Part shown: positions 12,247 through 34,660 of the stretch, in pieces | Layout of the letters: the number at the start of each line of letters is the position of its first letter | Numbering within the stretch: position 1 is the first letter of the stretch | Assembly (NCBI GenBank): GCA_913057235.1 | Contig: CAJXNI010000019.1 | Coordinates: forward strand, 1-45,953 | Reading direction: 5' to 3' | Source of the DNA: an uncultured Bacteroidota bacterium | Lineage (GTDB): Bacteria > Bacteroidota > Bacteroidia > Flavobacteriales > Schleiferiaceae | Length of the DNA stretch: 45,953 bases | The notes under the pieces: generated by a model | Database searches by the model: none | The model's input: the letters and a program-made list of their open reading frames with translations, nothing else | Told to the model about the DNA's origin: nothing | Program-made: the position numbers and the translations under genes

Positions 12247-12387
12247 AATTAAAATTTTTTTCAAGTACCGGATAAACTGAAAGGCAATCAATACGATGAA
12301 TGCCGTAGTTTTTGTGATGTCAGCTGTATAGGCCTGAGGCCTTGATGTTTTTTTAAACCGCGCCACCTTGGTCTCAACTCCCGCTCT

Positions 12388-12649
12388 AAGGGGTACCCCG
12401 AGTGCTTTTAGGGCGGGTTAGTGCTTTATGAAAGTAATTGCTGAAGAAGCTTTTTTAACCCTGCGCTTTTTTACGAAACCAATTACCTACCCCGTCTGCC
12501 ACTGCACAGCATCTACCCCTTCCAGGGGAAGGCGAAGTTTTACGCATTAAACATTGCTAATGAAAAGGACTACTGATAAATAATCACGGACTCAAATTTC
12601 CATTCTATAAAAAGGGGTACCCCGAGTGCTTTTAGGGCAGGGTAGTGTT
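12388..12649. repeat. Pair of ~38-bp direct repeats around GGGGTACCCC
   Basis: The sequence AAGGGGTACCCCGAGTGCTT plus TTAGGGC and a diverging tail occurs at 12388-12425 and again at 12612-12649, 224 bp apart in the same orientation. Each copy opens with the perfect palindrome GGGGTACCCC. The gene-free interval 12247-12697 otherwise contains only a small hairpin (CCCCTTCCAGGGG near 12517) and no supported ORF. The nature of the repeat is unknown. Confidence 0.75.
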
Positions 12650-12697
12650 TTTTAAGCACAGGGTAGATAATTACTATCGCCAAAAGCCCTTTATAGC

Positions 12698-13864: not shown

Positions 13865-14998
13865 ATGTTTAAACGCACGCTCTCAGCTACCTTGGCCAAC
13901 AAGTTGGGCCGGGGAAAAGCCATTATTTTGGTAGGACCGCGGCAAGTGGGTAAAACCACGCTCATCAACGAGCTCCTTAAATCTAAAAAGTTTCTTTTTT
14001 TAAACGCTGATGATCCTGTAACCCGGCAGATTTTGACCAACCCTAGTACCGATCAGCTTAAGACTCTACTTGGCACTTATACACTGGTTTTTTTAGATGA
14101 AGCCCAGCGCATTCCCAACATTGGGTTAACCTTAAAAATTATTACTGACCAATTTAAAGCGGTACAATTACTGGTAAGCGGCTCTTCTTCTTTTGAATTA
14201 GGCAACCAACTAAATGAGCCGCTCACCGGCAGAAAGTGGGAGTATCAACTGTACCCTATAAGTTGGGAGGAGTTGGAAGATGAGGTTGGTTACATCAATG
14301 CGGAACAGCAATTAGAAAACCGGTTGCTTTATGGGTTTTATCCTGATGTGCTGAACCATAAAGGAGAGGAGGTGGAAGTTTTACGCCAATTGGTAAACTC
14401 CTATTTATACAAAGATATTTTGGCCATGGCCAATTTGCGAAAGCCACAAGTACTAGAAAAACTGGTGCAGGCTTTGGCTCTGCAAATAGGCAGCGAAGTA
14501 AGTTTTAACGAGTTGGCTCAATTGGTAGGCGTTGATAAAAATACCATTACCAATTACATTCAAGTGCTTGAGCAAGCCTTTATCATTTTTAGGCTGGGGA
14601 GCTATAGCGGTAATTTGCGCAATGAAATTAAGACCAGTCGTAAGGTCTATTTTTACGATGTAGGAGTACGAAATGCCATTATTGGCAACTTTAGTGCCTT
14701 AGAATTAAGGCAAGATAAAGGCGCACTATGGGAGAATTTTTTAATAGCTGAGCGGCTAAAACAGAACGCCTACCAACAAAGCTTAGCCAAAATGTATTTT
14801 TGGCGCACCACCCGCCAGCAAGAAGTGGATTTAATTGAAGAAGAAGCGGGGAATATTGCGGCTTATGAGTTTAAGTGGAAATCTAAAGGAAACACTCGTT
14901 TTCCCAAAGCTTTTCTTTCTGCCTATAACCCCGAAACCAAAATAATTACCCGTGAAAATTTTAGGGAGTTTGTGGGATTAGAAAACTTTGAAAAATAA
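13865..14998 (+). CDS. AAA_14/DUF4143 ATP-binding protein
   Basis: A 377-residue P-loop ATPase of the AAA_14 plus DUF4143 family (PF13173, PF13635). Walker A is GPRQVGKTTL with K30, Walker B is LVFLDEAQRI (about 76-85), and a sensor segment LLVSGSSSFEL follows. The C-terminal DUF4143 region (about 170-330) contains a winged-helix-like part (FNELAQLVGVDKNTITNYIQ) and an endonuclease-like core ending WRTTRQQEVDLIEEE (E-V-D) and AYEFKWKSKGNTRFP, reminiscent of PD-(D/E)XK nucleases. Its cellular role is unknown; relatives are widespread in accessory DNA. The start is ATG 13865; TTG 13859 is the alternative. Confidence 0.88.
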   Translation: MFKRTLSATLANKLGRGKAIILVGPRQVGKTTLINELLKSKKFLFLNADDPVTRQILTNPSTDQLKTLLGTYTLVFLDEAQRIPNIGLTLKIITDQFKAVQLLVSGSSSFELGNQLNEPLTGRKWEYQLYPISWEELEDEVGYINAEQQLENRLLYGFYPDVLNHKGEEVEVLRQLVNSYLYKDILAMANLRKPQVLEKLVQALALQIGSEVSFNELAQLVGVDKNTITNYIQVLEQAFIIFRLGSYSGNLRNEIKTSRKVYFYDVGVRNAIIGNFSALELRQDKGALWENFLIAERLKQNAYQQSLAKMYFWRTTRQQEVDLIEEEAGNIAAYEFKWKSKGNTRFPKAFLSAYNPETKIITRENFREFVGLENFEK

Positions 14999-15042
14999 AC
15001 TTTTAGGATTAGCTTAAATCTTACCCGTCTTAACAGTGGGCG

Positions 15043-15687
15043 TTAGAAGAAATAGTCTAGGCCAAAAAACACGGAGCCAAGGTTTAAATCAAAAGAAATA
15101 TCATGGATTACTCTGTCATTGCCTCCTGCGGGAATTCTATAACTATAGCGTAGCGCGGACCAATCTAGCGTTAGTGCTAAGTTGCGGTTTAAAAAATAAC
15201 CGAATCCTGGTACAACACTTAGGCCTAATGAACGATGAAAATTTTTTTCTGGCCGGGAAGATGATAAATTAATATCTTTACTCTCCGCGTAATTAACATT
15301 AGCATTAATCTGAAGTTTTGAGAATAAAGATCGACTCAGTTTAAAGTAACGCTGAGCATAAAGGGTGGCGCTGTAATTTTCAAATAAATACTCTTCTATA
15401 CCTATTTCTCCATTATCGAATATGAAAACCTCACTCACTCTATCCCTCCTGTAATATCCCACACCTGCGCCAATGGCCCACTCGTTAGAAACCAAAATTG
15501 CAAAAGAAGGCGAGGCAGAGAAAACAAAATCATTTTCGTAAAGTCTTGTGCCGCTAAAGTCTTTGAAACTTTCATTGGAATAGTCCACCGAGAATTGGCC
15601 ACCTAGAATACGCTGCCCTTGTTTAATTTGGGCTGCTAAAACGTTAGAGAATAATAGAATCGCTGAAATTAAGACAAGTTTTTTCAT
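15043..15687 (-). CDS. Outer-membrane beta-barrel protein
   Basis: A 214-residue exported protein with signal peptide MKKLVLISAILLFSNVLAAQ and alternating amphipathic strands with aromatic girdles (ASPSFAILVSNEWAIGAGVG, ATLYAQRYFKLS, PGFGYFLNRNLALTLDWSAL). It ends in aromatic residues (FFGLDYFF), as expected for BamA-dependent barrels. It fits the small eight-stranded OMP_b-brl class (PF13568/PF13505-like). No substrate or partner can be inferred. It converges with the DUF4143 ATPase gene, 44 bp away, with no obvious terminator between them. Confidence 0.85.
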   Translation of the reverse strand: MKKLVLISAILLFSNVLAAQIKQGQRILGGQFSVDYSNESFKDFSGTRLYENDFVFSASPSFAILVSNEWAIGAGVGYYRRDRVSEVFIFDNGEIGIEEYLFENYSATLYAQRYFKLSRSLFSKLQINANVNYAESKDINLSSSRPEKNFHRSLGLSVVPGFGYFLNRNLALTLDWSALRYSYRIPAGGNDRVIHDISFDLNLGSVFFGLDYFF

Positions 15688-15701
15688 GGTTTGATTTGAA
15701 T

Positions 15702-15878
15702 TTAAGAGTTTTTATTTTGCATTTTATTGGTCTTCAAAACCAATGCCATAGGGACTATAATTAGAATATTAGAAATTATGCGAGCCCAAAATCCTTCATC
15801 TTTTTCAGCTTAGGTGAATACGTATAAGAACAGCAACATTACGCTGGTCGCAATTATAAAAAGGGCTAGGTTTTTCAA
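15702..15878 (-). pseudogene. Small two-helix membrane protein interrupted by a stop codon
   Basis: From TTG 15878 the minus strand reads LKNLALFIIATSVMLLFLYV then FT, a TAA at 15812-15810, and continues in the same frame as AEKDEGFWARIISNILIIVP and MALVLKTNKMQNKNS to TAA at 15704-15702. The whole is 58 codons and has the shape of a tiny inner-membrane protein with two hydrophobic helices joined by a charged loop. The TAA is one transition from CAA (Gln), so a single nonsense change would explain it. The starting codon is uncertain because no in-frame ATG lies nearby. It is not recognised as a known family, and it could be a chance reading, although the coding character after the stop argues against that. 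Confidence 0.5.
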
Positions 15879-15915
15879 AACAGTAGCATAAGTGGTTTAG
15901 AAAGCTGTAAGAGTT

Positions 15916-16773
15916 TTAGTAGGAGGTGGTTACATCCTCATCCACCACCAGAATAAAATCAGCTTTGGCCGCTTCTTCAGCCGTAGGTTTTTCTACCTGT
16001 GATTTTAGTACGGTGCTAAGGGTAAGCACTTTTAAATCTGGGGCATACTGGTTTAAATACCAGCTAATACCTTCAAAATCCTTGCTATGGTAATCGCCAT
16101 TAAAGTGCAAGAGCATTTGGCCGGGCTCTAGAGATTGAGCAATAGAGTAGGCCATAGTAGCGTCTTTGATGGCTTGTGCTTTCACTAAATTTTCACCGCC
16201 ATGGCCACCCATCATTTCCAGCATGGCCTGGTAGCCGGGTAAACTGGCATCAAAAGGCATGGGCAAAGGTGCTATAAATGCCAGTTCTGCTTCGCTGAGG
16301 CTATCCAGACTTTCCATGCCCTGCTTGTAAACCCTACGGGCGTAGCGCCTGGGTATGTTGGTAGCTATAAAAGTGAGGCCGCTGTCTTTGGCAAAATCAA
16401 CCAGCATTTTATAGTCGGTTTGGTAATTGGGCCAAAGGCGGGCCAGGGTATCCAAACCTTTTTGATCTATGCTATCGGCTAAATACAAATTGAGTGCTTC
16501 TTGATTGTCTCGTTCCAACATTTCCGCGCCCAGTATTAAGCTACTGTCTTGCGCGTGCAAAGCCTTGGTGAGCTCAATTTGCAGCCAGTGGCAAATGGGG
16601 TTGTTGTGCAATTCCCCAAAGAGAACAACATCGGCTGCAGCCATTTCTTGCACCATTTGATCAAAGCGAATAGCCACCCCGCTGCTATCATAAAGTTGGT
16701 AAGCTTGTAAATTTTGCGCTTGCGCAAAAAGCAGACTGAGGCAGAGGCTTAAAGTGTACCCGATTTTAGTCAT
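15916..16773 (-). CDS. ChaN-like haem-binding uptake family protein
   Basis: A 285-residue exported protein of the ChaN/DUF399 family (PF04187, Tiki/TraB-related fold); Campylobacter ChaN is an iron-regulated haem-binding lipoprotein. Signal peptide is MTKIGYTLSLCLSLLFAQAQ, without a convincing lipobox, so it is probably soluble in the periplasm. The family motif VVLFGELHNNPICHWLQIEL lies at about 50-69, and a second conserved histidine region is LLHFNGDYHSKDFEG near 222-236. ATG 16773 overlaps the stop of the amidase by one base (TAATG), indicating coupling. A decayed copy of this gene's 3' end lies at 24775-24985. Confidence 0.88.
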   Translation of the reverse strand: MTKIGYTLSLCLSLLFAQAQNLQAYQLYDSSGVAIRFDQMVQEMAAADVVLFGELHNNPICHWLQIELTKALHAQDSSLILGAEMLERDNQEALNLYLADSIDQKGLDTLARLWPNYQTDYKMLVDFAKDSGLTFIATNIPRRYARRVYKQGMESLDSLSEAELAFIAPLPMPFDASLPGYQAMLEMMGGHGGENLVKAQAIKDATMAYSIAQSLEPGQMLLHFNGDYHSKDFEGISWYLNQYAPDLKVLTLSTVLKSQVEKPTAEEAAKADFILVVDEDVTTSY

Positions 16774-18056
16774 TATTGAAGGGAAATTTTAGTGCTGAAA
16801 TTTTGCCGTGGGCTTTGTATTTTCAAAAGGTAAACACCCTTTGGCAAATTAAGGTCTAAACGGTTTTCGCTTCCGCGGAAGCGCCCGGATTGCAAAACCT
16901 GACCAGCGGCATTAAAAATTTGCCAACGGTAGGCCGCACCGGGCGGGGCTTGAATGCTTACCTGGCTTTGAGCCGGATTGGGATACACGCTGAAGCGAGG
17001 TGCCTTAAACTCTGAATTGTGCAATAAGCAAGGCTTTTGAGCTATCGCCAAAGCCAGGCTGTCCATTTTTTGGTAGAGTTGCTGACCCGGGCAAAGGGTG
17101 CCTTTGGGGCAGCCTTGGGTTGAGGTATTGCCGTCTAGATGGCCACTTACATGCTGCAAGACCAGCTGTGAGCTTTGGTGTAAGCTGCTATCAGCCGGGG
17201 CAATTTGGTTTTGGCAACTCTCATAGGCCAGTAAATTGGCCAGGGCGCTTAAGCCATTTTGGGCGGGTTGATTGCTCACGTAGTTGCCAATAAGGCAAAT
17301 CCCTAAGGTTTCTTCATTCATACAACTGAAGTGCGCCCCACGGTTACCACTGCCGCGGCCTTCATAAATTACTCCGTTAGGGTCTACCAGCCAGTTGTAA
17401 CCAATGTCATCCCAGCCGTTGGTGTTTACGTGTAAATCCCAGTAATAGGAAACCACCCAGTTGTAATCGTTGTAATTGGTAAAGCCAGCCGAGTGATGCA
17501 CAATTAAGTGCGTGGGTTGGGTAGGGGTGTACTGCGCGGGAGGCGGACATTGATTATTGGGGCACCAGCAGGAGCGGTTGCAGGTAGGCGGCAGCGGGCA
17601 GTTGCAACCAGAAGCTTCTTGCTTACTTAGGGTTTGCTCTGGATTTTTTTTTTCGGCCGGGGCCCAAAACAGGCGTACAACTAAAGGTTGTTCCAAGGTG
17701 TCGCTGGCGCGGATTTCCAAACCTTCTATGCTTTGCATAATGGGATCGGCCGCAAAACTTTGGCGGTTTTTAGGCGCACCTTCATGCGGAGGAAGCATAG
17801 CCTGCCATTCTTGCCAGCGGTTATTGTGCTTCACGCGATATTCCAAGTGCACCGCATGCACTGTATCCAGCGTGTAAGCCGAAAGCCCCAAAAAGCCATA
17901 ATCTAGAGTATCCAAGCCGGTAATAGTTTCCGCGTAAGCGTGGCTGCGCAACCAGCATTTGGAGTTGAGGTTAAAGGTGAATTCTTGGGTGTTAGGCTGC
18001 CCGAAAGCTATCAAGCTCAAAATTAGAGCCCAAAAGGATAAAAGCATTTTTAACAT
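16773..18056 (-). CDS. PGRP-type N-acetylmuramoyl-L-alanine amidase with T9SS tail
   Basis: A 427-residue secreted protein. Signal peptide MLKMLLSFWALILSLIAFGQ is followed by a beta-rich N-terminal domain (about 22-140), a cysteine-rich linker (GCNCPLPPTCNRSCWCPNNQ), and an Amidase_2/PGRP domain (about 178-340). The amidase motifs are HLIVHHSAGF (zinc histidine), YNWLVDPNGVIYEGRG, GICLIGNYV, and QHVSGHLDGN...TQGCPG-type ligands. The C-terminal 75 residues (FSVYPNPAQSQVSI) are a type A T9SS sorting domain, so it acts on peptidoglycan outside the cell. A run of ten A residues on the coding strand (17653-17644) encodes part of AEKKN and is a possible slippage site. It is co-transcribed with the ChaN-like gene. 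Confidence 0.93.
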   Translation of the reverse strand: MLKMLLSFWALILSLIAFGQPNTQEFTFNLNSKCWLRSHAYAETITGLDTLDYGFLGLSAYTLDTVHAVHLEYRVKHNNRWQEWQAMLPPHEGAPKNRQSFAADPIMQSIEGLEIRASDTLEQPLVVRLFWAPAEKKNPEQTLSKQEASGCNCPLPPTCNRSCWCPNNQCPPPAQYTPTQPTHLIVHHSAGFTNYNDYNWVVSYYWDLHVNTNGWDDIGYNWLVDPNGVIYEGRGSGNRGAHFSCMNEETLGICLIGNYVSNQPAQNGLSALANLLAYESCQNQIAPADSSLHQSSQLVLQHVSGHLDGNTSTQGCPKGTLCPGQQLYQKMDSLALAIAQKPCLLHNSEFKAPRFSVYPNPAQSQVSIQAPPGAAYRWQIFNAAGQVLQSGRFRGSENRLDLNLPKGVYLLKIQSPRQNFSTKISLQ

Positions 18057-18194
18057 GCCTCAAAAGTAAGCAATTACAGTAGCTTGAATCGATTTGTATG
18101 GATAGACTTCAGTACAAAGACGGCTGTATTAAGATTTGAGTACGAAGTATTGAGATAACAGTTTTGAGTACCTACATTTCAAAAATCACCCTGT

Positions 18195-18225
18195 CCCCCG
18201 GGCGCAGCTTAGCGTAGACCCGGGG
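18195..18225. repeat. REP-like palindrome in the 18057-18267 gap
   Basis: CCCCCGGG (18195-18202) and CCCGGGG (18219-18225) form inverted arms around GCGCAGCTTAGCGTAGA. It sits downstream of the minus-strand gene at 18268 and resembles the short CCCGGG-type intergenic palindromes of many bacterial genomes. It could act as a terminator stem, but no T tract follows. Confidence 0.5.
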
Positions 18226-18267
18226 CCTCTGGCTGAGCGGGATTTCTTTAAGACTACTGACTAAAAG

Positions 18268-19284
18268 CTACTGCTTTACCAAACTTACTTGCTGCGCCAG
18301 TTGGCCCTCACCAACTTTTAAAAGGTAAACCCCGGTAGGTAAATCTTGAAGATTAGCAATTCTATGGTGTTCTATTAGACCCTCTCGCACCAATTGCCCG
18401 TTGTAAGCATATAAGTAAAAGGCCGTGCCATTGGCTACATTCTCTAAACTAATTGAGGTATTGAAAGGATTTGGATACACCTGCACAGGTTTAACCTCTT
18501 CTTCCTTAAAGCTAAAATAGTTTTGCGGCAACACATCACCGTAGCTACCCAGATATTGCACACTGCAATCGCTTAAATCTACTTGAAACTGCCAGTACCT
18601 GCGGTAAGGGCAACCCGTATAGCAACCAAAACTGGTGGGGATATTCCAACCATGGGAGTAAGTGATTAAAGCGGTATCAGAATTTTGGGTTATTTCTATA
18701 GTTCCTATTGGTCCTCCATAAATGACAGCGGGAAATGCAAGGCTAAGACTATCTACAGAGTTTAGTATTGGGGCTATTTGCTTGGCATTCCAATTTTTAT
18801 CGGATTTTAATTCTACATAAGTATATCCTCCAATGGGTGGATAGATTGGTAGATCAGGAACTAGATTAAACGCGGTTATAATTGAATCAAAAGTTATATC
18901 TCCAGTAGTAACATATCCTCTCATTAAAGTATCTAACCAAGTTGCGCCCGCCTCCGCTCTAGCCACTATTCTTTTCATAGATGGATTAGGCAGACTATGT
19001 ATCTTAAGCAGATCAACCACAGTATCTCTAGCCTTTAAGGTAGTAGCATTATAAACTGCTATTAAAGATTCCATCATAACATCAGACAAAACGGGGTTTA
19101 TAGCCGCACTATCTTGCCAAGTACTGCCAGAGTTTAAAGTTTTTTGCAGGGCTAGCCAATCCGCATCATCTTGATATAAAGCTTTGATACTATCGGGAGC
19201 ATCGCAAAGGGTGGGGGTGCTTTGGCCACGGCCCAGAAAGGCTAGCCCCAAACTTAAAATACCGGTGAAAATTAGATTTTTCAT
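18268..19284 (-). CDS. Secreted T9SS-tailed protein, unknown function
   Basis: A 338-residue exported protein with signal peptide MKNLIFTGILSLGLAFLGRGQ. Residues 22-110 look helical (SIKALYQDDADWLALQKTL), and residues 140-250 are mixed, with two close cysteines in FGCYTGCPYRRYWQFQV. The last 75 residues (VQVYPNPFNTSISL to LPTGVYLLKVGEG) are a type A T9SS sorting tail. No enzymatic motif is recognised. It starts 8 bp after the stop of the subtilase gene, so the two probably share a transcript. Its role may be linked to that protease, but nothing in the sequence proves it. Confidence 0.82.
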   Translation of the reverse strand: MKNLIFTGILSLGLAFLGRGQSTPTLCDAPDSIKALYQDDADWLALQKTLNSGSTWQDSAAINPVLSDVMMESLIAVYNATTLKARDTVVDLLKIHSLPNPSMKRIVARAEAGATWLDTLMRGYVTTGDITFDSIITAFNLVPDLPIYPPIGGYTYVELKSDKNWNAKQIAPILNSVDSLSLAFPAVIYGGPIGTIEITQNSDTALITYSHGWNIPTSFGCYTGCPYRRYWQFQVDLSDCSVQYLGSYGDVLPQNYFSFKEEEVKPVQVYPNPFNTSISLENVANGTAFYLYAYNGQLVREGLIEHHRIANLQDLPTGVYLLKVGEGQLAQQVSLVKQ

Positions 19285-19292
19285 GCTGGCTA

Positions 19293-22112
19293 TTATTGAA
19301 TTACTAAAATACGGCTTTCTGCTACTGTGCCATTAGCTACCACGCTTATGGTGTAAATGCCATGCGGCAAGGTCGTTATATCAATGCTGACTTGGTTAGA
19401 AGAGGTAGCTACAAGAGCACTAAGTACATTTACACCATTAAAGTCATTTATCTCAACACTAGCACTTTGAATGTTATTAGGTAAATTTAAACCAATGGCC
19501 ACTAGGTTACTAGCTGGGTTTGGATTTAAAGAGGTAATCCAACGGTGTTTCACATTTACCTCTACCTCATCATAATCCTTAAAATTACTGGAGTCTGAAA
19601 TAACCTCTAAATTATAGGTAGTTTTTTCATTTGGCTGCACCAACAGGGTATTACCAGAGGCCACTAAACTATCTTGCTTATACCAGTTGTAGGTAGCTGG
19701 CTTATTAATGCTTTTAGCTGCAAGCGTTGTGCTTTCATCATCATAAATTTCCTGGTCGGGGCCGGCATCTGCTTCAAAGCCATCAAATGGCGTTCTCAAA
19801 ATATCATAGTGTACAGCTCCTAACAAATCATCATTGGTAGCATCATATTGACCCAGATGCAGGGTAAAACGGGCCGTATCGTTTTCGGCATATTCTGCTA
19901 AAAAGCTGGTACTTAAATAGGTTTGAATTCTTTGCCCCGGGTTAAGGCGCAAGCCAGTAATGGATGCATTAACAGACTCAAACCGCAAGGTATTGTCATT
20001 GATAAGATGTACCTCGTTGAATTGTAAATTAGGTGACTGATTAGCTACATCCCAAAAATTCTGATCTATTTGTAAACAAACCTCAGCCTCTTCAAATATG
20101 TTTACCTCTTCGTTAAGCCAAGGCGTTTCGTTTATTCGTAGATTAAAATCGCCTGAAAACTCTTGATTAGGGTTGCCAACAAAAACTGCACCGCCAGGAG
20201 GTACTTCTCTGCCGCTAAAGCTTCCTTTTTTATTAAGAACTACCGTAAGGTTTTTCATGGCTATATTGCCGTTTTCATACACATCGCGGTGTAGTTCATT
20301 AGGGTAAACCGTTATGCCCTCATCGGGAGCGTTTTCTATACGCGCTAAAAGACAAACGTTATTGCCGGCTGCAATAGGTGTGTTGCTAAAATCCCAAGGC
20401 ACCTCTACTACCACATTGCCACCTGCCGGTATAGCCGGTATATTAAAGCCGTTGCCAATTTCATCGCCAATACTTGGGTTAGTTCCATCCCAATTTTGCG
20501 GCCAACTGGAAACTGATGAAGCCAAAGACCAATAAAGATGAAGTTTGCTATTGGAACTACCGGTGCCAGGAAAATCAGCACAGCTTTTATTGCGCACAAT
20601 AACATATACATAGGCGTTACCTTGAGTTTCGCTAGGGCTTTCGTGACCATAACGATTATTCAGGTCTCTTTTATTGCGCAACCAAATGTCAGGACTATTG
20701 TCAAAATACCAGCCCCAAACATAACTGTTGGGGTAACCGAAATCTTCAAAGCGATCTTTTATGTATAAATCCACACTGGAAGACTGCATTCCGTTGGCTA
20801 TTTCCACCGCTTTTTCGGCATCTAGCCTGCCATGACCTAATTGTGCAGATATGTCATCATAAGGCGGTAGCGAAAAAGAGTTGATTTTTCCATAACTATA
20901 ACCACCAACCCTATTAATACTTTCTCTAAAAATATCGTTGAATTGCGAAGGACTTAAACAAGGGTTCACGCACTTCATTAAAGCAGCTGTACCTGAAACC
21001 ATGGGCGTGGACATGGAAGTGCCAGATGAGGGGGAATAAGCGTTCCCAGGTACAGTGCTTAGAATGTCTTCACCTGGAGCAGAAAGCGCAAGCTGATTTG
21101 CGCTATAATTTGAGGTGCTGAGTCTTTGATCAAGTTGGGTGGTACCGCCCACCGCAATTACTTCCTTTACAGCGGCAGGATACCGTATTCCCTGGGTTCC
21201 GTCTTTACCACTACCCGCTATCAAAACAATGCCAGCGTTATAGGCGGCTGTTATTTCATTCCTAACGGCAGTTGATGTGGGTGTGTATCCGGCAAAACTC
21301 ATGTTAATGATGTCCGCACCATTTTGACGAGCATATTTTATTGCATCAAACTCCTTGGTAATTTGGTCAGAGTTATCAGGCCCTGCCTTCAAAGCCACTA
21401 TTTGAACACCTGGACTGTTATCCCCGCCTGCAATACCCGCCATACCTAAGCCATTATTAGTTTTTGCAGCCGCTATTCCCGTAACGTGAGTGCCATGAGA
21501 ATCGCTCATAACAGGGCTAGGGTCATTATCGTTGTCAATAAAGTCAAATCCACTACCACTACCCATATCAATGTGGTTAAGGTCTATGCCGCCATCTATT
21601 ATGGCTATAGTTACGGTATTGCAGCCCTTTGTAATATCCCAGGCCTTATCCGCCTTTATTCTATCTAAATACCATTGTTGATTACTGGTGTAACGCGGAT
21701 CATTAGGCGACCATAATAACTGCCGGTAAACGTTTATGCTAATTTCCAATATATGACTTTGACTCAAAAGGCTCTCGTAAACTGTCTTAAAAGAAGAACT
21801 GGGAGGTATTGAAAACGAATCCCAACCAGTGTCGGATGTATCTTCAAGGGTTAAGCCTAAACCGGTAACATAATTTAACATACTCTCTTCACTAGAACCA
21901 ATTGCTTTAAGAATAATTGTTAAAGTATCTACTTGGTCAGCACCACCGTTGGCCTGCATTTCCCAAACTCCGTTCACTTTTGTTAAAGTTCCTTGTAGGG
22001 TAGAGTAGGGTTGAGCATAAATTGTTAAGGAAAAGAAAAAGAACAGCAAGTTGAGTTTTATTCGACTGAAACTTAAAGGTTTTTTGTCAGTAGGTGTCTT
22101 TAGGTTTTTCAT
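19293..22112 (-). CDS. Subtilisin-family (S8) serine protease with T9SS tail
   Basis: A 939-residue secreted protease. After a long signal region (hydrophobic core at about 19-33) and a propeptide-like stretch (40-140), the S8 domain (about 145-435) has Asp173 in IAIIDGGID, His206 in DSHGTHVTG and Ser366 in SSGTSMSTPMVSG. The oxyanion-hole asparagine, normally in an AGN motif, appears replaced by Lys303 (IAGSGKDG). C-terminal beta-sandwich domains (about 440-860) include a PKD/Ig-like segment (ADAGPDQEIYDDEST), and a T9SS tail follows (TSLNPNPASNLVAIGL to LPHGIYTISVVA). Substrates are unknown. The Lys substitution leaves activity uncertain. Confidence 0.93.
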   Translation of the reverse strand: MKNLKTPTDKKPLSFSRIKLNLLFFFFSLTIYAQPYSTLQGTLTKVNGVWEMQANGGADQVDTLTIILKAIGSSEESMLNYVTGLGLTLEDTSDTGWDSFSIPPSSSFKTVYESLLSQSHILEISINVYRQLLWSPNDPRYTSNQQWYLDRIKADKAWDITKGCNTVTIAIIDGGIDLNHIDMGSGSGFDFIDNDNDPSPVMSDSHGTHVTGIAAAKTNNGLGMAGIAGGDNSPGVQIVALKAGPDNSDQITKEFDAIKYARQNGADIINMSFAGYTPTSTAVRNEITAAYNAGIVLIAGSGKDGTQGIRYPAAVKEVIAVGGTTQLDQRLSTSNYSANQLALSAPGEDILSTVPGNAYSPSSGTSMSTPMVSGTAALMKCVNPCLSPSQFNDIFRESINRVGGYSYGKINSFSLPPYDDISAQLGHGRLDAEKAVEIANGMQSSSVDLYIKDRFEDFGYPNSYVWGWYFDNSPDIWLRNKRDLNNRYGHESPSETQGNAYVYVIVRNKSCADFPGTGSSNSKLHLYWSLASSVSSWPQNWDGTNPSIGDEIGNGFNIPAIPAGGNVVVEVPWDFSNTPIAAGNNVCLLARIENAPDEGITVYPNELHRDVYENGNIAMKNLTVVLNKKGSFSGREVPPGGAVFVGNPNQEFSGDFNLRINETPWLNEEVNIFEEAEVCLQIDQNFWDVANQSPNLQFNEVHLINDNTLRFESVNASITGLRLNPGQRIQTYLSTSFLAEYAENDTARFTLHLGQYDATNDDLLGAVHYDILRTPFDGFEADAGPDQEIYDDESTTLAAKSINKPATYNWYKQDSLVASGNTLLVQPNEKTTYNLEVISDSSNFKDYDEVEVNVKHRWITSLNPNPASNLVAIGLNLPNNIQSASVEINDFNGVNVLSALVATSSNQVSIDITTLPHGIYTISVVANGTVAESRILVIQ

Positions 22113-22162
22113 GATAATTACTATTAGGTTATGTGAATGTATTGTTTTGGCTGTGTTTTAGC

Positions 22163-23647
22163 TTAAAGCTTATTCCACAAAATATTGTGCTGGGCGCCCT
22201 TAAAGGTGAGTTGTAAAATGTAAGTACTGGGCTCTATGCCGCTAACATTAAGCTTCGCCTTTTGAGTCATCACACCCCTTTTTACTGTTTGCCCTCCTAA
22301 GCCAATAATAGTGTAGTCCACAGTATTGGGCCAGGCCTCAGGCCAGCTATCTATTTGCAAATAATCTTGGGCGGGGTTGGGGTATAAACTAAGGCGCGGC
22401 TCCATTTGCCGCGCTTCCATTAACTCAAGGGCAAAGTTGGGAATTTTAGCCAGCCAGATATAGCTAGAGTCATTGCTTTGCCAATTATTTCGAGTGCCTA
22501 CCACAAAAAGGTCTCCATTGTCATCGGCATAAATATCAGTGGCTACATGGTTGCTTTGACCAAATAGAACAATACTGTCTTGCCCAAAATTATTCCAACG
22601 GTAAATAACCACTTCACGATTTTCGGCTCCATTTATTCTAAAATCATTCCACGGGGTAGAGGTGCTGATAAAGGACTGATTGTTTTCTGGACTATACTCA
22701 TAGGCATAGCTGCGCTCATTTATGTTAGGATTCCCAAAATTGCGCAGTTCCAAAGAATCGCCTTGCCAATTGGCGCGGTATACAAAGGCTTGCTCATTAT
22801 AAACAAATCTAGTACCTTGGATTTCTCTCATCTCAACAATGCCAGAATATTGGAAGCTATTATTATTCGCAGTAAAACCAGTTGGTTCAGGCCCTTCATA
22901 TCCTCTATCAAAGAAGAAACTAAAGGGCGGTTTAATAGTTCTTATAGTATCTAGGTTGTTTCTATTGATAAGGTACAGATTCATTTCGCCAAAGAGCATT
23001 TCCGCCATCAAAAGTACATCTTCATTTGGTGGATATTTTTGCATTTGCATCAGCCTAATGGGTAACTGAGATTTAGAAGGGTCTTGCCATGTGTAATATC
23101 TGCTATTAAGGATATTACCCAAGGTGTCAAAAACCATTATTTGTGAAGTATCGCCCAACCCAAAAGATGTTATCTCGTTAATATAAAACCAGTACAGCTT
23201 TCCCTTATGAAAGTCTGCGGTGATGCCATTTAGCGGAAGAAATTTAGGGAAGGTATGCTTAAATAAGGTGTCAATTATCCTTCCATTTCTTTCACTCAAT
23301 CTAAAAAAGCTCAATGCATTTGAATTATAAAATGCATAATATTTCGGAAAATCCTTATTCTTTCCTCCAAAGAATAGGTGAGAAACACTATCATTAAATG
23401 AACTAGGTATACCAATTAGATGGTCGCTTAATGTGTTTAAACCGTTTTTTGAAATCTTTTTGTAAGTAACATGAATTTGACCACCAATTTCAGCTAAGTA
23501 CCGAATATAGAAAGATTGGTTATTGCTGGCCACAATTTTCGGAAAAGAACCAGTCCCGAACCTATTTGTGTTATACTCCAGAGTGGTTACCTGCGCACTA
23601 GCGCAAGTAACCAGCAAAAGAAGTAAGCATATTTTAAAAAATTTCAT
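22163..23647 (-). CDS. Secreted T9SS-tailed protein, propeller-like, unknown function
   Basis: A 494-residue exported protein. Signal peptide is MKFFKICLLLLLVTCASAQ. The body (20-415) is a run of short beta-rich segments of the kind seen in secreted propellers (KLYWFYINEITSFGLGDTSQ, SFISTSTPWNDFRI, IYADDNGDLFVVGTRNNW), without a recognised catalytic motif. The C-terminal 80 residues (LSLYPNPAQDYLQI) are a type A T9SS sorting domain. It lies 50 bp upstream of the subtilase gene in the same direction. It resembles in style the broken protein at 10775-12246 but is not an evident copy. Confidence 0.82.
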   Translation of the reverse strand: MKFFKICLLLLLVTCASAQVTTLEYNTNRFGTGSFPKIVASNNQSFYIRYLAEIGGQIHVTYKKISKNGLNTLSDHLIGIPSSFNDSVSHLFFGGKNKDFPKYYAFYNSNALSFFRLSERNGRIIDTLFKHTFPKFLPLNGITADFHKGKLYWFYINEITSFGLGDTSQIMVFDTLGNILNSRYYTWQDPSKSQLPIRLMQMQKYPPNEDVLLMAEMLFGEMNLYLINRNNLDTIRTIKPPFSFFFDRGYEGPEPTGFTANNNSFQYSGIVEMREIQGTRFVYNEQAFVYRANWQGDSLELRNFGNPNINERSYAYEYSPENNQSFISTSTPWNDFRINGAENREVVIYRWNNFGQDSIVLFGQSNHVATDIYADDNGDLFVVGTRNNWQSNDSSYIWLAKIPNFALELMEARQMEPRLSLYPNPAQDYLQIDSWPEAWPNTVDYTIIGLGGQTVKRGVMTQKAKLNVSGIEPSTYILQLTFKGAQHNILWNKL

Positions 23648-23666
23648 GTCAGATAGCTCTTACGGT

Positions 23667-24719
23667 TTAGAAGCAACCGCAAATAGGATAGAAAAAGCGT
23701 CCACTATGATAAAAGTTTTCTGGCGGTGTTGCACTCATTCCTAGAGGTTGATTAGTTGGGGAGTATGATTTATAGTCAGTTCTATAAAAATGGCGATTCC
23801 CGTAAGATTGGAAGATAGGTGTGCCAACACTCACCAAATTATCCATTTTAGCATACCAAGAATACCAAATTTGATTGTTGTTGGTTTGGTCATTATCATC
23901 GCCAATATTGGTATTGGTATTGGAGCGCCAAATATTAGGTAAAACAAATGAAGTGTATTGGTTCCCTAATAAAGGACTATTGTTCGAAAATGTGTGATAG
24001 GATAAGTTGGAGCTAGCATAAGGCTGTGTTCCTGGTGGACAAGGATATTTATTGAAAAAGCCATGAACCTGATTAGTGTAAGCTCGCAGTAAATCTGCAG
24101 CATCACCCCCACTTGCATTTGAATAAGCAGGCAGTGAGCCAGGTGGCGTGTACCAAGGTGCTTGCACTACGCCAGGGTTTATGTGTAGTACAAAAGTAGC
24201 CTCCGCATTGCTTAAACTAATAAGCTCAAGGTAGGCAATGATCAACACCTCTCCATCAGCTTCATCAATATTGAGATCAATGGCCGCTTGCAAATCATTG
24301 TAAAAAGGGATGAAATCAGCGGTTTCAATGTAGTAGTCGTTTTGGGAATCTTGGTACACATCTACCGTAAAAGTACTAGTAATTTCTTCCTCACCGGTTA
24401 TAGGATCATAAAAGTTGGCATTATTTGCATTCAATAAGCCTTCATGCACGTAAAATACATCACCCAAGGGCACGTCTCCCAGGGCGTTGGTTTTGGCCTT
24501 GCCAGCATATATAAGTTCCAAAACTTCGTTTTTTTCACGTAAGGTTGAACTCAGTTGCTCTAGATTTAGAGACTCATATTGGTCATGAATTTTGGTCATG
24601 ACCTCCACCGCTTTTTCTTGTGGGTTTTCTAACGCAGCGTTTTGGTTTTCAGATTTTGAGCATCCGCTCATAAGGGCTAGGATTATACCCCCCCCCATAA
24701 ACATGGCAGTTGTTTTCAT
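23667..24719 (-). CDS. Putative lipoprotein with a G9 tract in the signal peptide
   Basis: A 350-residue predicted lipoprotein. Signal peptide MKTTAMFMGGGIILALMSGC ends in a good lipobox (LMSGC, Cys20). The mature part is acidic and asparagine-rich, with two cysteines near the end (FYPICGCF). No domain is recognised. Codons 9-11 (GGG GGG GGT, preceded by the G of ATG) form an uninterrupted run of nine G on the coding strand (24696-24688). Loss or gain of one base there would stop synthesis after a few residues, so phase variation is possible. It stands 20 bp upstream of the T9SS protein gene and is probably the first gene of that run. Confidence 0.75.
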   Translation of the reverse strand: MKTTAMFMGGGIILALMSGCSKSENQNAALENPQEKAVEVMTKIHDQYESLNLEQLSSTLREKNEVLELIYAGKAKTNALGDVPLGDVFYVHEGLLNANNANFYDPITGEEEITSTFTVDVYQDSQNDYYIETADFIPFYNDLQAAIDLNIDEADGEVLIIAYLELISLSNAEATFVLHINPGVVQAPWYTPPGSLPAYSNASGGDAADLLRAYTNQVHGFFNKYPCPPGTQPYASSNLSYHTFSNNSPLLGNQYTSFVLPNIWRSNTNTNIGDDNDQTNNNQIWYSWYAKMDNLVSVGTPIFQSYGNRHFYRTDYKSYSPTNQPLGMSATPPENFYHSGRFFYPICGCF

Positions 24720-24774
24720 AATTAAAGATTTAGATTAAAGTGTGAAGTTAGAATAAAAAATGACACAGACAAAC

Positions 24775-24985
24775 TTACTGTCTTAAATACCAAATAGCCA
24801 CATTCTCATCTACCATAAAATGAAATTGGCTTTAGCGGCTTCCTTAGCCACAGGTTTTTCTGCCTTTGTTTTTAGTTCGGTGTTAAGCGTAAGGGCCCTT
24901 AAGTCTATGGCATACTGATATAAATACCAGCTAATGCCTTCAAAATCTTTGCTGTGGTTATAAGCTAATAAAATGTAGGAAAGTG
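24775..24985 (-). pseudogene. Decayed second copy of the ChaN-like gene's 3' end
   Basis: The minus strand encodes ILLAYN, HSKDFEGISWYLYQYAIDLR and ALTLNTELKTKAEKPVAKEA, then AKANFIL, matching the last 65 residues of the ChaN-like protein at 15916-16773 (HSKDFEGISWYLNQYAPDLK and onward), with a 3-residue deletion. The frame then shifts by one base, and the final VDENVA matches the intact VDEDVT before a stop at 24777-24775. DNA-level similarity is obvious by eye (for example AAATACCAGCTAAT occurs in both copies). No start codon or N-terminal part is present. Same orientation as the intact gene. Confidence 0.85.
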
Positions 24986-25143
24986 GCGTTAGGCACAATA
25001 TTTTTAAAGAAAATGGTCTAGAGTAGAGAAAACAAGGGCTAAAGTTGGTAAATTACTAGATGCACTAAAAAGATAGGATGGTGAACCTGCAAAGACTAAA
25101 CACCTGCATGATTCTGTCTTTATTTACCCATCAGTAGCCCACC

Positions 25144-25177
25144 AAAAAAAGGCCAAACCCATTTAGGGAATGGCCTT
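25144..25177 (-). terminator. Intrinsic terminator of the sqr-tusE-dsrE operon
   Basis: On the minus strand AAAGGCCATTCCC...GGGTTTGGCCT forms a stem around 25150-25176 and is followed by seven T residues (25150-25144), 23 bp after the DsrE-like gene stop. Confidence 0.75.
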
Positions 25178-25199
25178 TAACAAATTGAATAATAAGCAC

Positions 25200-25721
25200 T
25201 CAAATAAACAGCAAGTGCGTATTCTCACCAGCGGCTCTTTCGTAAAAATCCCCTACCGTAAGCACCCCGTCCAGCTCGTCAATTAAGTCTTCTTCTTTAA
25301 TGTGAAACATGTCCATGGCCAGTTTACAGGCCCAAAGGCGCGCTCCGCTGGCACTCAGAATTTCAAGGAATTCACCCACCGGTGGAATGTCCAGTTTTTC
25401 CATTTCTTTTTTCATCATGCTGGTGGCAAAGGATTCCATACCGGGTAAACCGCCCAACATAGTAGGGATGTGCATAGCCGGGTTACCTACCGTGGCAATG
25501 CTTAAGTGTTCCAGCTTTTTTTTCTGGATAGCCTCTAATCCAAAAAACGTAAAAAATATTTCGGATTCAATGCCTTCCATGCGGGCGCCATTGGCTAAAA
25601 TCATACAGGCGTATACATTATCAATGGTAGCTTTCGAAAGTATTAGCATCATTTTCTTCACCTTACCCTCTTTGGTTTTGGCGGTGGGCAGGTCTTGTTT
25701 TAAAACTTCAGTGGGATTCAT
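25200..25721 (-). CDS. DsrE/DsrF/DrsH-like (DsrE2) sulfur-transfer protein
   Basis: A 173-residue protein of the DsrE2-like family (PF13686). These relay persulfide sulfur between sulfurtransferases, TusA or TusE/DsrC-type proteins and oxidation enzymes. Family features are visible: a Rossmann-like start KMMLILSKATIDNVYACMIL, the IFFTFFGLEAI strand-loop, a methionine-rich loop (MLGGLPGMESFATSMMKKEM) and the conserved cysteine C132 in RLWACKLAMDMF, the likely persulfide carrier. A polar extension of about 22 residues precedes the domain. It is the last gene of the operon, 18 bp behind the TusE-like gene, and ends in a clear terminator. Confidence 0.9.
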   Translation of the reverse strand: MNPTEVLKQDLPTAKTKEGKVKKMMLILSKATIDNVYACMILANGARMEGIESEIFFTFFGLEAIQKKKLEHLSIATVGNPAMHIPTMLGGLPGMESFATSMMKKEMEKLDIPPVGEFLEILSASGARLWACKLAMDMFHIKEEDLIDELDGVLTVGDFYERAAGENTHLLFI

Positions 25722-25739
25722 AGCGCTAAAATTTAAAGG

Positions 25740-26048
25740 TTAAATGCAACTTACGGGTTTGGGTATGCCGGCTATTCTACTCGCTTTTTTCAAAGGCCCA
25801 CCAGGGAATAAGGCGTAAAAGCCCTTAATATCAATTACCCCGCTTTTACCCACTTTACGGATGGTGAGGGCCACTTCATTTTTATGCTGATTTTGAAGGT
25901 ATTCCAAAACGGGCCAGTGAGCCTCTTCAAGTGTGATGCCCTCTTCCTGGGCTATCTCGGTAGCCACGTCTTTATCCCACTCGTTCAGGTTGGTGAGGTA
26001 GCCTTCTTCGTTTACGGTAATGTTTTTACCAGCTATTTGCTTTTCCAT
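25740..26048 (-). CDS. TusE/DsrC-family sulfur relay protein
   Basis: A 102-residue protein of the DsrC/TusE family (PF04358). The C-terminal arm ends AGIPKPVSCI, with the conserved penultimate cysteine C101. The second cysteine of true DsrC, eleven residues earlier, is a serine here (LKKASRIAGIPKP). This single-cysteine arrangement is of the TusE type and suggests persulfide relay rather than the trisulfide chemistry of dissimilatory sulfite reductase. It lies 11 bp after the SQR gene. The assignment is firm; the exact acceptor of its sulfur is unknown. Confidence 0.93.
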   Translation of the reverse strand: MEKQIAGKNITVNEEGYLTNLNEWDKDVATEIAQEEGITLEEAHWPVLEYLQNQHKNEVALTIRKVGKSGVIDIKGFYALFPGGPLKKASRIAGIPKPVSCI

Positions 26049-26059
26049 GATATTTAAAT

Positions 26060-27307
26060 TTAAGCGGTTACTTCTGCGTATTCTTTGCCGGCTGTGTTCA
26101 TTTTAGAACTTACAAAAGGAATGTGCTTTCCGGTGATGAGCATATTCCAATAAATCCATTTAAAGGCCAGCTTACCCAGGTGATTCATGCGGCTCTCTTC
26201 AAGTAGCCGTAGGGGCCCCAAGCCTGGAATGGGAAAGGTGCCGGGCACGGGCTCATGGGTGTAGTTGAAATCAATCAGTAAAGCTTTGCCGTGGCCCGTT
26301 TCCACAAAACAGTTGGCGTGGCCGTCAAATTCGGCTTTTAAGGGTTTGTTGTCCAGAAAGCGTTGTACGTTTTCCAGCAAAATTTCGCCTTCAAAATGGG
26401 CTACACTACCGGCTTTAGAGGCGGGCACATCCGTAGCGTCACCAATAACAAAAATGTTGGGCTTCACCTTGCTTTGCAGGGTGGCCTTATCGGTGGGTAC
26501 AAAGTTGAGCTCATCGCCAAAACCACTGCGTTCTACGTAACCGGCTCCCATGTTGGTAGGCACGGTTACCAGTACATCGTAGCTTACTTCACGGCCTTCA
26601 TAATCAATTATTTTTTGGGCTTCACCATTTACCTCCATAATGCTGAAATTGGGTACTACTTCAATTCCTTTTTCATCGAGGAGATGCTGCAACTTAGCGG
26701 TGGCCACGGGCTTGGTAAAGGCACCGTCCATGGGGGTTACGTAGGTAATCTCTATGTTTTCACGAAGGCCCTTTTCTCTAAAATAGGCATCGGCCAAAAA
26801 GGCAAATTCCAACGGAGCCACCGGGCATTTTATGGGCATTTCAGCAATGTGTACTACCAGGTGGCCTTCTTTAAAATCTTTAATTTTTTCATGCAAAGCC
26901 AAAGCACCTTCCAGCGTGTAGAAGTCAAAAATATTTTTGCGCCAATAAGGGCCGTCCATGCCCTCAATTTCCTGCGGAGCAATATCGGTACCGGTGGCAA
27001 TTATGAGTAAATCATAGGGTAAAACTTCACCGTTGGCCAACACTACCTGGTCCTCATCGGGTTTAACCCGATCTATACTTTCTTGAACATACTGCGCCTT
27101 GCCAGGGATGAATTTTTCAATGGGCTTAAGCACATCTTCTTTGCTGTAAATGCCAAAAGGAATAAACAGGTAGCCCGGCTGATAGTGGTGCTCTTTACGC
27201 TGATCTACAATGGTGACCGCGTACTCATTTTGGGGTAGACTTTTGGTAAGGTGGTTGGCCATTAAAGTACCTGCGGTACCGGCTCCTAAAATCACTACTT
27301 GTCTCAT
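26060..27307 (-). CDS. Sulfide:quinone oxidoreductase (FAD-dependent)
   Basis: A 415-residue flavoprotein that should oxidise sulfide to polysulfide or persulfide and pass electrons to quinone at the membrane. It has the dinucleotide motif LGAGTAGT (7-14), the second ATG motif IATGTD (103-108), and IFVIGDATDVPASKAG (285-300). The two redox cysteines of SQR are at C161 (IKCPVAPLEF) and C333 (HANCFVETG). The C-terminal amphipathic part (HLGKLAFKWIYWNMLITGKH) suits membrane attachment. It is the first gene of the sulfur operon. A third SQR-type cysteine is not evident, so the subtype is uncertain; a related NADH dehydrogenase-like activity is less likely because of the cysteine pair. Confidence 0.9.
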   Translation of the reverse strand: MRQVVILGAGTAGTLMANHLTKSLPQNEYAVTIVDQRKEHHYQPGYLFIPFGIYSKEDVLKPIEKFIPGKAQYVQESIDRVKPDEDQVVLANGEVLPYDLLIIATGTDIAPQEIEGMDGPYWRKNIFDFYTLEGALALHEKIKDFKEGHLVVHIAEMPIKCPVAPLEFAFLADAYFREKGLRENIEITYVTPMDGAFTKPVATAKLQHLLDEKGIEVVPNFSIMEVNGEAQKIIDYEGREVSYDVLVTVPTNMGAGYVERSGFGDELNFVPTDKATLQSKVKPNIFVIGDATDVPASKAGSVAHFEGEILLENVQRFLDNKPLKAEFDGHANCFVETGHGKALLIDFNYTHEPVPGTFPIPGLGPLRLLEESRMNHLGKLAFKWIYWNMLITGKHIPFVSSKMNTAGKEYAEVTA

Positions 27308-27330
27308 GGCCCTGTGTTTTAAATTCGAGT

Positions 27331-27400
27331 TAAAACTACAAGGAGTCTGTTCCTTAGACTATGAGAAAAATCAGCTTTTGGTCTTGTGTGACTTAGGTCA
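27331..27400 (-). promoter_or_regulatory. Candidate promoter and FNR-like operator of the sulfur operon
   Basis: The perfect palindrome TGACttagGTCA (27389-27400, core TGAC-N4-GTCA as in the Crp/Fnr family) lies 82 bp upstream of the SQR start and overlaps the end of the threonine aldolase gene. A second inverted repeat AAGGAgtctgtTCCTT is at 27340-27355. TAGTTTTA (27338-27331) is a 7 of 8 match to the -7 box. If that box is used, the palindrome is centred near -70, an activator position. Confidence 0.5.
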
Positions 27401-28421
27401 TGTTCTGCAAAACCTGGCACACGGCCGCAATTTGTTCTGAACTTACGTCTAAGTGCGGCACAAAGCGCAATTTGCCTTGGCCCATTGCGGTGTGTAAAAT
27501 ATGGTGTTTGGCCAACATTTTGCTAAACGCTTCCGCGGATTTCCCTTCTTTGAGGTAAAAAATAACAATGTTGGTTTCAACCGGCTCTACCCGGTCTACC
27601 CAGGCGCAGTGTTCCAGCGCTTCTTTAAGGCTTTGTGCCTTTTGGTGGTCTTCGGCCAGGCGTTCAATGTGATGGTCAAGCGCATAAATGCCAGCCGCAG
27701 CTAGGTATCCCGCTTGCCGCATGCCACCGCCCATACGCTTGCGTATTCTCCTTGCTTTGGTGATAAATTCTTGCGAACCTAAAAGGAGCGAGCCCACCGG
27801 GCAGCCTAAACCTTTGCTCAGGCAAATGGAAATGGAGTGGAAGATGGCGCCATAGTCTTGAGGCTCTTGATTTTTAGCCACCAAGGCATTCCAGAGGCGG
27901 GCACCGTCAAGGTGAAAACTCAGACCGTGGTGGTCACAGACCTCCCGGATGGCTCTTAAGTCTTCCAATTCGTAGCAAGCGCCACCGCCCTTGTTGGTAG
28001 TGTTTTCAGCTACCACTAAACGGCTGGGAGCCGCATGAATATCGTTTGGGTTTTGCACCAAAGCTTCCACCTCAGGAGCCGTCATGAGTCCTTTGGGCCC
28101 ATGGGTGAGCCGTACCTGGCAGCCGCTGTTAAAAGCCACTCCGCCTCCTTCATAATTGTAGATGTGAGAGAGAGCGTGGCAGATAACTTCTTCACCCGGC
28201 ACGGTATGCACTTTAATGGCAATTTGGTTGGTCATGGTGCCGCTGGGGCAAAACAAGGCGGCCTCCATGCCAAACATCTGAGCGGCCTTTTTTTCCAATT
28301 CATTTAAGCTGGGGTCTTCCTTAAAAACATCATCACCCACGGGGGCTTTCCACATAGCCTCTTGCATGGCTTGAGTGGGGCGGGTAACGGTATCGGAACG
28401 TAAATCTATGGTAGCGGTCAT
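27393..28421 (-). CDS. ltaE: Low-specificity L-threonine aldolase
   Basis: A 342-residue PLP enzyme (beta-eliminating lyase family, PF01212) that cleaves threonine and allo-threonine to glycine and acetaldehyde. The opening IDLRSDTVTRPTQAM and VGDDVFKEDPSLNELE are typical. FHLDGARLWNA carries the Asp and Arg that hold PLP. The Schiff-base lysine is in ICLSKGLGCPVGS (about residue 203), and KRMGGGMRQAG is conserved. The ATG at 28421 is preferred to the TTG at 28433, which overlaps the previous gene; with ATG it starts 4 bp after that gene's stop, so coupling is likely. Confidence 0.95.
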   Translation of the reverse strand: MTATIDLRSDTVTRPTQAMQEAMWKAPVGDDVFKEDPSLNELEKKAAQMFGMEAALFCPSGTMTNQIAIKVHTVPGEEVICHALSHIYNYEGGGVAFNSGCQVRLTHGPKGLMTAPEVEALVQNPNDIHAAPSRLVVAENTTNKGGGACYELEDLRAIREVCDHHGLSFHLDGARLWNALVAKNQEPQDYGAIFHSISICLSKGLGCPVGSLLLGSQEFITKARRIRKRMGGGMRQAGYLAAAGIYALDHHIERLAEDHQKAQSLKEALEHCAWVDRVEPVETNIVIFYLKEGKSAEAFSKMLAKHHILHTAMGQGKLRFVPHLDVSSEQIAAVCQVLQNMT

Positions 28422-28425
28422 GCGT

Positions 28426-34625: not shown

Positions 34626-34660
34626 AAAAAAGCCCTCTGAAATTTTTCAGAGGGCTTTTT
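34626..34660. terminator. Intrinsic terminator after the AcpH-like gene
   Basis: AAAAAGCCCTCTGAAA pairs with TTTCAGAGGGCTTTTT, a perfect stem with A and T flanks, so it can stop transcription from both sides, including the small minus-strand gene at 34683. Confidence 0.9.

Follow-up and report, generated by a model that had tools for sequence, protein, structure and literature searches.

Several routes by which bacteria can gain DNA beside a resident gene have been described. Two of them are documented in one report, namely the integration of circularised incoming DNA by a single crossing-over and, in naturally competent bacteria, homology-facilitated illegitimate recombination (PMC3240628). 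A third example comes from the T6SS clusters of Vibrio cholerae. Stepwise displacement there leaves behind orphaned immunity genes and the 3' ends of effectors, and homology-facilitated illegitimate recombination has been put forward as an origin of orphan remnants in such arrays (PMC5361080).

The locus analyzed here lies on a contig of 45,953 nucleotides (the window, taken as a whole) from an uncultured Bacteroidota bacterium of the Flavobacteriales, family Schleiferiaceae. Its best explanation, given a probability of about one half, is that four A+T-rich genes were inserted, in this lineage alone, between the end of a SQR-TusA-DsrE run and an amidase-ChaN unit, an event coupled to a duplication of ChaN and brought about by a single crossing-over and a subsequent deletion. 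The insertion as such is well supported, and the recombination would have followed the route outlined below. No published account of such an arrangement was listed by a literature search by topic rather than organism name. The features concerned are the following.

15043-15687, minus strand: outer-membrane beta-barrel-like (OMP) gene with low GC3 (PF13505, 28.3 bits, under the cut-off of 28.7)
15916-16773, minus strand: intact ChaN gene (PF04187; Pfam and sequence comparison with relatives)
16773-18056, minus strand: Amidase_2 protein with T9SS sorting domain, the native partner of ChaN (Pfam; gene order in relatives)
18268-19284, minus strand: T9a, 338 aa, T9SS sorting domain, second of the S8+T9a pair, low GC3
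19293-22112, minus strand: S8 subtilase, T9SS sorting domain, first of the S8+T9a pair, low GC3
22163-23647, minus strand: T9b, 494 aa, T9SS sorting domain, second of the lipoprotein+T9b pair, low GC3
23667-24719, minus strand: putative lipoprotein, first of the lipoprotein+T9b pair
24800-24984, minus strand: ChaN remnant, truncated and frameshifted, about the last 60 codons (BLAST, alignment, shuffles)
25121-25200, minus strand: terminator-like hairpin with T-run just past DsrE (fold)
25200-27307, minus strand: SQR-TusA-DsrE run, the conserved DsrE-side flank (gene order in relatives), with DsrE at 25200-25721 (Pfam) and the genes at 25740-26048 and 26060-27307, which we take to be TusA and SQR

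The intact gene matches the ChaN/Cofac_haem_bdg family with an E value of 6.2e-60 (203.3 bits against a curated cut-off of 27.7) and shares 60-66% amino acid identity with the single ChaN of related genomes. The preliminary description of this DNA had noted a decayed copy of its 3' end in the same orientation, and this was borne out by comparing the window with itself by BLAST: positions 24800-24958 match 15932-16091 with 80% identity over 160 columns (E 9.2e-27). A tblastn comparison of remnant and ChaN aligned 38 of 56 amino acids (E 4e-21), and the best local alignment of 24700-25199 with ChaN scored 98, far above 300 dinucleotide shuffles (mean 12.1, maximum 17). The remnant is thus a truncated, out-of-frame pseudogene homologous to about the last 60 codons of ChaN. 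Its limits, first placed at 24775 and 24985, had to be redrawn in part, since homology is secure from 24800 to about 24961 and uncertain from there to about 24984, and 24775-24799 showed no alignment to the end of the ChaN gene. The frame change near its 3' end is present as a 1-nt gap after ...AKANFI; the possible 3-codon deletion also reported appears in the protein alignment, whereas at the DNA level this stretch aligns with one inserted nucleotide. Searches of the genome's own DNA and proteins found ChaN in these two places and no third copy.

ChaN genes were counted in 88 genomes of the family, none from the same genus. The nearest genus (g15) is represented by the seven genomes with a ChaN match. 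All seven carry a single-copy ChaN unit joined to DsrE without the block, a comparison that takes in the flank towards DsrE together with the amidase-ChaN unit, the recX side being broken in the genome studied here. Six of them have the order SQR-TusA-DsrE-amidase-ChaN-recX, and in the seventh DsrE adjoins ChaN-recX with no amidase between. Each has one ChaN match against two in the present genome. This supports an insertion linked to the duplication of ChaN, as had been proposed from the repeats. The remnant lies past the terminator-like hairpin of DsrE, at the position taken by the amidase-ChaN unit in relatives. In the window this hairpin folds at -25.9 against a mononucleotide-shuffle mean of -14.0 (sd 2.7); similar hairpins fold after DsrE in six relatives, as judged by the fold alone, the shuffles having been run for the window. 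A consensus terminator scan restricted to loops of 3-8 reported no hairpin after DsrE.

The amidase had been counted as part of the inserted block. It is the upstream neighbour of ChaN in six of the seven related genomes, and this gene order makes it part of the ancestral ChaN unit. The inserted genes are the lipoprotein, T9b, the S8 protease and T9a (18268-24719). The earlier inventory of amidase, lipoprotein and T9SS proteins between the repeats holds, with four T9SS proteins instead of three, the amidase having a sorting domain as well. On the other side of ChaN, the OMP gene occupies the place of recX in relatives, and recX-serS lies on another contig, so there is a second breakpoint 3' of ChaN. 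Low GC3 in the OMP gene, together with recX lying elsewhere, indicates more than one event in this region.

That the block looks A+T-rich had been judged by eye and is confirmed by codon composition. GC3 of the four genes across 18268 to 24719 is 0.345, 0.356, 0.388 and 0.373, compared with a mean of 0.494 (sd 0.050) for the other 37 open reading frames of at least 90 aa in the window. The neighbouring amidase, ChaN and DsrE genes have values of 0.49-0.54 (DsrE 0.50, amidase 0.54), so that the block differs from both flanks; the exceptions outside it are the OMP gene further out (0.340) and 45241-45603 (0.331). The composition of T9SS proteins could by itself lower GC3, yet the amidase, also exported by the T9SS, does not have a low value.

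An ancestral block, with the short arrangement of the related genus produced by its loss, is highly unlikely. Homologues of its genes are scattered in the family and the nearest genus may share a single loss; however, in a genome of another genus (G016) the amidase directly adjoins recX without the block, the composition of the block is unlike that of its flanks, and loss of the block alone would leave the ChaN remnant unexplained. At 80 ChaN loci examined in relatives, no T9a, T9b or lipoprotein gene was found nearby, and the sole S8 match (L093) covers residues 135-414 only.

Elsewhere in the family, the block genes occur in combinations that make it look like two stacked gene pairs, lipoprotein+T9b and S8+T9a. 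The lipoprotein and T9b genes are adjacent, in the same order, at four loci in three genomes, which corresponds to four of the eight T9b places outside the present genome. T9b in G008, at a second place in G021 and in G006 has no lipoprotein gene within the stretches examined, and that in G041 lies near a contig end. An S8 gene followed by two T9a copies was found at one locus, in G040. The S8 relatives in G018, G001 and G003 (L123-L125) and at a contig end in G016 (L126) had no other block gene alongside in the stretches examined, and T9a homologues in G051 and at C102 of G016 have no adjoining S8, while that at C41 of G016 is at a contig start; the S8+T9a pairing is therefore drawn from G040. 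Both pairs are stacked in one genome only. Within the present genome, no other copy of the S8 or lipoprotein gene was found at E 0.001, nor of T9b at E 1e-12. At E 0.01 the lipoprotein matches no family in Pfam or NCBIfam, and its Cys20 is invariant in an alignment of four sequences; with T9b it forms a recurring uncharacterised module. The gap between T9a and the amidase (18057-18267) was considered as a dispersed-repeat recombination site and rejected, its matches in the same genome being short and partial (best 26 bp); its GC-rich 14-mer has no second copy in the window.

Under the preferred reading, the incoming DNA, a circle or a tandem unit from outside, would have borne a homologue of the ChaN unit together with the block. 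A single crossing-over with the resident unit would give the order DsrE-amidase-ChaN-block-amidase-ChaN; one deletion would then take away the leading amidase along with two-thirds of the ChaN that follows it, from the 5' end, and the 3' tail left upstream of the block would decay. In trees of a 46-codon segment, comprising remnant, intact copy and 41 other sequences, the two copies are sisters (support 0.993 for nucleotides and 0.979 for amino acids), which places the duplication or transfer in this lineage or one close to it. A divergence of about 20% in DNA between the copies excludes a simple tandem duplication of recent date, and the first copy is either old or derived from a different species. 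An alternative origin offered earlier was tandem duplication followed by loss, and the traces expected from it, of the first amidase, of the ChaN 5' part or of similarity past the repeat ends, were not found. No score in 24962-25199 exceeded those of shuffles, although decay could have erased such traces; alignment found no similarity between the sequences just outside the two repeats, and a search of the genome with 24960-25200 returned only itself. The full-length first copy is thus a hypothetical one.

The lone tail and the absence of similarity beyond it would also be accounted for if a linear fragment with the ChaN 3' end and the block had entered in one step by homology-facilitated illegitimate recombination, with no full tandem copy at any time. 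This is possible but rather doubtful. The products reported gain about 1 kb, lose about 1 kb and show 3-10 bp of micro-homology (PMC3240628), whereas about 6.5 kb were gained here with amidase and ChaN kept, and the junctions have decayed beyond the point where micro-homology would show.

Two functional ChaN genes, an old tandem pair or a resident and a foreign gene, may instead have diverged first, the block entering later or independently and one ChaN then being truncated. In the 46-codon segment, 13 synonymous and 14 nonsynonymous differences separate the copies (dN 0.14-0.16, dS 0.53-0.71), a synonymous count with P 0.0014 if both had evolved neutrally. Intact copy and remnant each agree with the outgroups at 12 sites, with 3 unresolved, so the remnant has not evolved clearly faster; this polarisation was made without L018 of G014, whose duplicate L004 represented it in de-duplication and was missing from the outgroup list. 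These figures come from 46 codons only, the outgroups are about 50-64% identical in DNA here, which makes synonymous-site polarisation near random, the protein tree places all change on the remnant, and no family genome compared has two ChaN genes. An early divergence of this kind is accordingly unlikely.

Duplication of a gene 3' end around a low-GC block also recalls an integrase-type island, with the repeats as attachment sites, and the block had been supposed to be once excisable. When an element integrates into a gene 3' end, the displaced fragment comes to lie past the element, on the downstream side of the gene that is restored. The ChaN remnant has the opposite geometry and precedes amidase and ChaN in the direction of transcription. 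No recombinase was found among the ten proteins scanned (13865-29172), no integrase or recombinase match was obtained for the four block proteins in Pfam or NCBIfam, and there is no tRNA gene in the window. Crossing-over between the repeats would delete the amidase along with the block and leave the sole intact ChaN without its 5' two-thirds, so the ancestral, empty site would not be restored. That the copies are now only 80% alike over 160 bp is a further point against excision. Orientation and the lack of a recombinase among the scanned proteins thus rule out such an island, which is hardly conceivable. An assembly artefact would fit the 49 contigs of the assembly and is very improbable, as 160-bp repeats of 80% identity are too dissimilar for an assembler to join and a single contig contains the block with its two flanks.

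Insertion with partial duplication is already well known as a process. The scar at the ChaN site can still be read as the entry of a block of surface or secreted proteins into a conserved neighbourhood of an uncultured-type Flavobacteriales lineage, and it separates native from acquired genes. With Campbell-type single crossing-over of circularised DNA it shares the direct duplication of the recombining gene around the incoming DNA; it differs in that the first copy is a 3' tail only, in the 20% divergence of the copies and in having no vector or mobility gene among the proteins scanned. Like homology-facilitated illegitimate recombination (PMC3240628), it involves foreign DNA gained beside homology without an integrase; reported inserts average about 1 kb and come with a deletion to match, against about 6.5 kb with neighbours kept. 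The T6SS clusters of V. cholerae (PMC5361080) likewise have exoprotein-type genes stacked at one conserved position, together with a 3' gene remnant from an earlier state, but displaced genes lie downstream there, whereas the ChaN remnant lies on the upstream side, the gene it derives from is no effector and the stacking of two pairs is known from one genome. By analogy with T6SS effector displacement, the ChaN site might be a stacking place for two-gene secretome modules that move between Bacteroidota by integrase-free recombination at the ends of housekeeping genes and leave gene-end scars, a generalisation that is clearly unlikely to hold. The locus bears the ordinary marks of gene acquisition and genome evolution and is no new kind of system.

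The intact ChaN-like gene (Pfam) recurs as a decayed tail on the far side of the amidase gene and a block of four further genes, and this arrangement is the scar of an ordinary process, an insertion with partial duplication followed by decay. The features concerned are:

15916-16773, minus strand, intact ChaN-like gene
16773-18056, minus strand, amidase
18268-19284, minus strand, T9SS protein T9a (block)
19293-22112, minus strand, S8 subtilase (block)
22163-23647, minus strand, T9SS protein T9b (block)
23667-24719, minus strand, lipoprotein (block)
about 24800-24984, minus strand, ChaN remnant

The direct repeat proposed in the preliminary description is borne out, with slightly corrected limits, by a self-BLAST of the window (24800-24958 against 15932-16091, 80% identity, E 9e-27, plus/plus strand), by tblastn with the ChaN protein (38 of 56 residues identical) and by an alignment score of 98, where 300 dinucleotide shuffles reach 17 at most. 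The remnant spans ChaN residues 222-281 approximately, securely from residue 229 onward, with one 1-nt gap close to the 3' end and, towards the 5' limit, an indel that differs between the protein and the DNA alignment. At 24775-24791, 15 of 17 positions match a motif inside ChaN (E 0.41, possibly chance), perhaps the reason why the start had been set at 24775. Searched at DNA and protein level, the own genome showed ChaN sequence only in the intact gene and the remnant.

A family search of 88 genomes gave ChaN matches in 17, the own genome included in both counts. The nearest genes (62-66% identity, one match apiece) belong to seven genomes of another genus, g15 (loci L016-L021 and L139). Every one of these genomes has SQR, TusA and DsrE ahead of the ChaN unit, has recX after ChaN but on the other strand, and shows no block gene at the DsrE-ChaN site; the amidase lies between DsrE and ChaN in six, and in the seventh (L018:9338-10807) it is absent there and ChaN directly follows DsrE. 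This SQR-to-recX neighbourhood was not seen in the stretches fetched around more distant family ChaN genes. In G016, a genome with no ChaN match, the amidase directly adjoins recX. By these gene orders, the amidase is a member of the ChaN-recX neighbourhood and the block is not.

GC3 is 0.373 for the lipoprotein, 0.388 for T9b, 0.356 for S8 and 0.345 for T9a, compared to a mean of 0.494 (sd 0.050) for the remaining 37 ORFs of at least 90 aa. The native amidase also carries a T9SS sorting domain and has a GC3 of 0.542, so T9SS export alone does not account for the low values. Homologues of the block genes are scattered. Counting the own genome each time, the lipoprotein occurs in 3 out of 40 relatives and T9b, at E 1e-12, in 7 out of the order's 395 genomes; T9a, beyond the sorting domain, occurs at five places in three family genomes among the matches listed. 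In the conserved run that holds serS in G016, a T9a homologue (L180:8847-9908) separates serS from the gene that comes next.

The main extension of the earlier picture is that the block stacks two gene pairs, lipoprotein-T9b and S8-T9a. The genes of the former pair sit side by side, in the order they have in the window, at four loci from three genomes (two in G012, one each in G021 and G040):

L175:9245-11793, lipoprotein and T9SS protein module
L137:9952-12473, the same
L138:9814-12387, the same
L136:1-2399, the same

This lipoprotein is uncharacterised and has no match in Pfam or NCBIfam; the recurring pair is a modest lead. On contig C13 of G012 the module is broken by a TAG. G040 also has, at a distance of 1.5 Mb from its lipoprotein-T9b pair, an S8 protease with a T9SS sorting domain; two tandem T9a copies, nearly identical to each other, come after it (L174:9072-14121). 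By their domains, the block genes encode a subtilase and two further proteins with T9SS routing, plus a putative lipoprotein, probably an outer-surface or secreted set. A hairpin after DsrE, not among the results of a consensus scan limited to loops of 3-8, suggests separate transcription of the block and the DsrE run.

A second breakpoint, of a rearrangement, lies directly 3' of ChaN. The relatives' order there is recX, a DUF4286-like gene, a TPR gene, a lipoprotein gene and serS. In the own genome this run is on another contig (L121, G000:C18:39989-44499), where it adjoins different genes, and a low-GC3 OMP gene (15043-15687) occupies the position of recX in the window. The amidase-ChaN unit, of native composition, is thus bordered on both sides by DNA unlike that of relatives. 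Elsewhere, the window holds two overlapping ORFs in different frames resembling one frameshifted gene (10886-12366, minus strand), an intergenic 40-bp direct repeat (12388-12427 and 12612-12651, 92.5% identical), short direct repeats clustered near the contig end (175-664) and a near-perfect 34-bp palindrome (34627-34660).

A gene end duplicated in direct orientation, with the complete gene on one side, is consistent with duplicative integration, for which single crossing-over of circularised DNA is a documented route (PMC3240628). Integration would yield amidase-ChaN-block-amidase-ChaN, and a later deletion would strip the first copy of its amidase and of the 5' part of its ChaN. Alignment found no remains of a first amidase near the remnant and no similarity beyond the two repeat ends, so that the main rival, a one-step homology-facilitated illegitimate insertion, may instead have led here; the events of that kind reported in PMC3240628 are about 1 kb, which counts against it.

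Trees built from 46 codons, with 41 further sequences included, place remnant and intact ChaN as sisters (support 0.993 for nucleotides and 0.979 for protein). The two copies differ at 27 sites, 13 of them synonymous and 14 nonsynonymous; so many synonymous changes would be rare had both copies diverged neutrally (P 0.0014), and outgroups agree with each copy at 12 sites. These few data, with distant outgroups, hint that the copies may have diverged partly as working genes before truncation, perhaps in different species, but the protein tree puts the change on the remnant.

The preliminary description also held that the block could once be excised by recombination. Crossing-over between the repeats would leave the cell without an intact ChaN, no recombinase was matched among the four block proteins (Pfam, NCBIfam) and no tRNA gene lies in the window. 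Together with the side on which the remnant lies, this argues against an excisable island: the ChaN remnant is upstream of the amidase-ChaN unit, whereas integrase-type insertion leaves the displaced 3' end on the opposite side.
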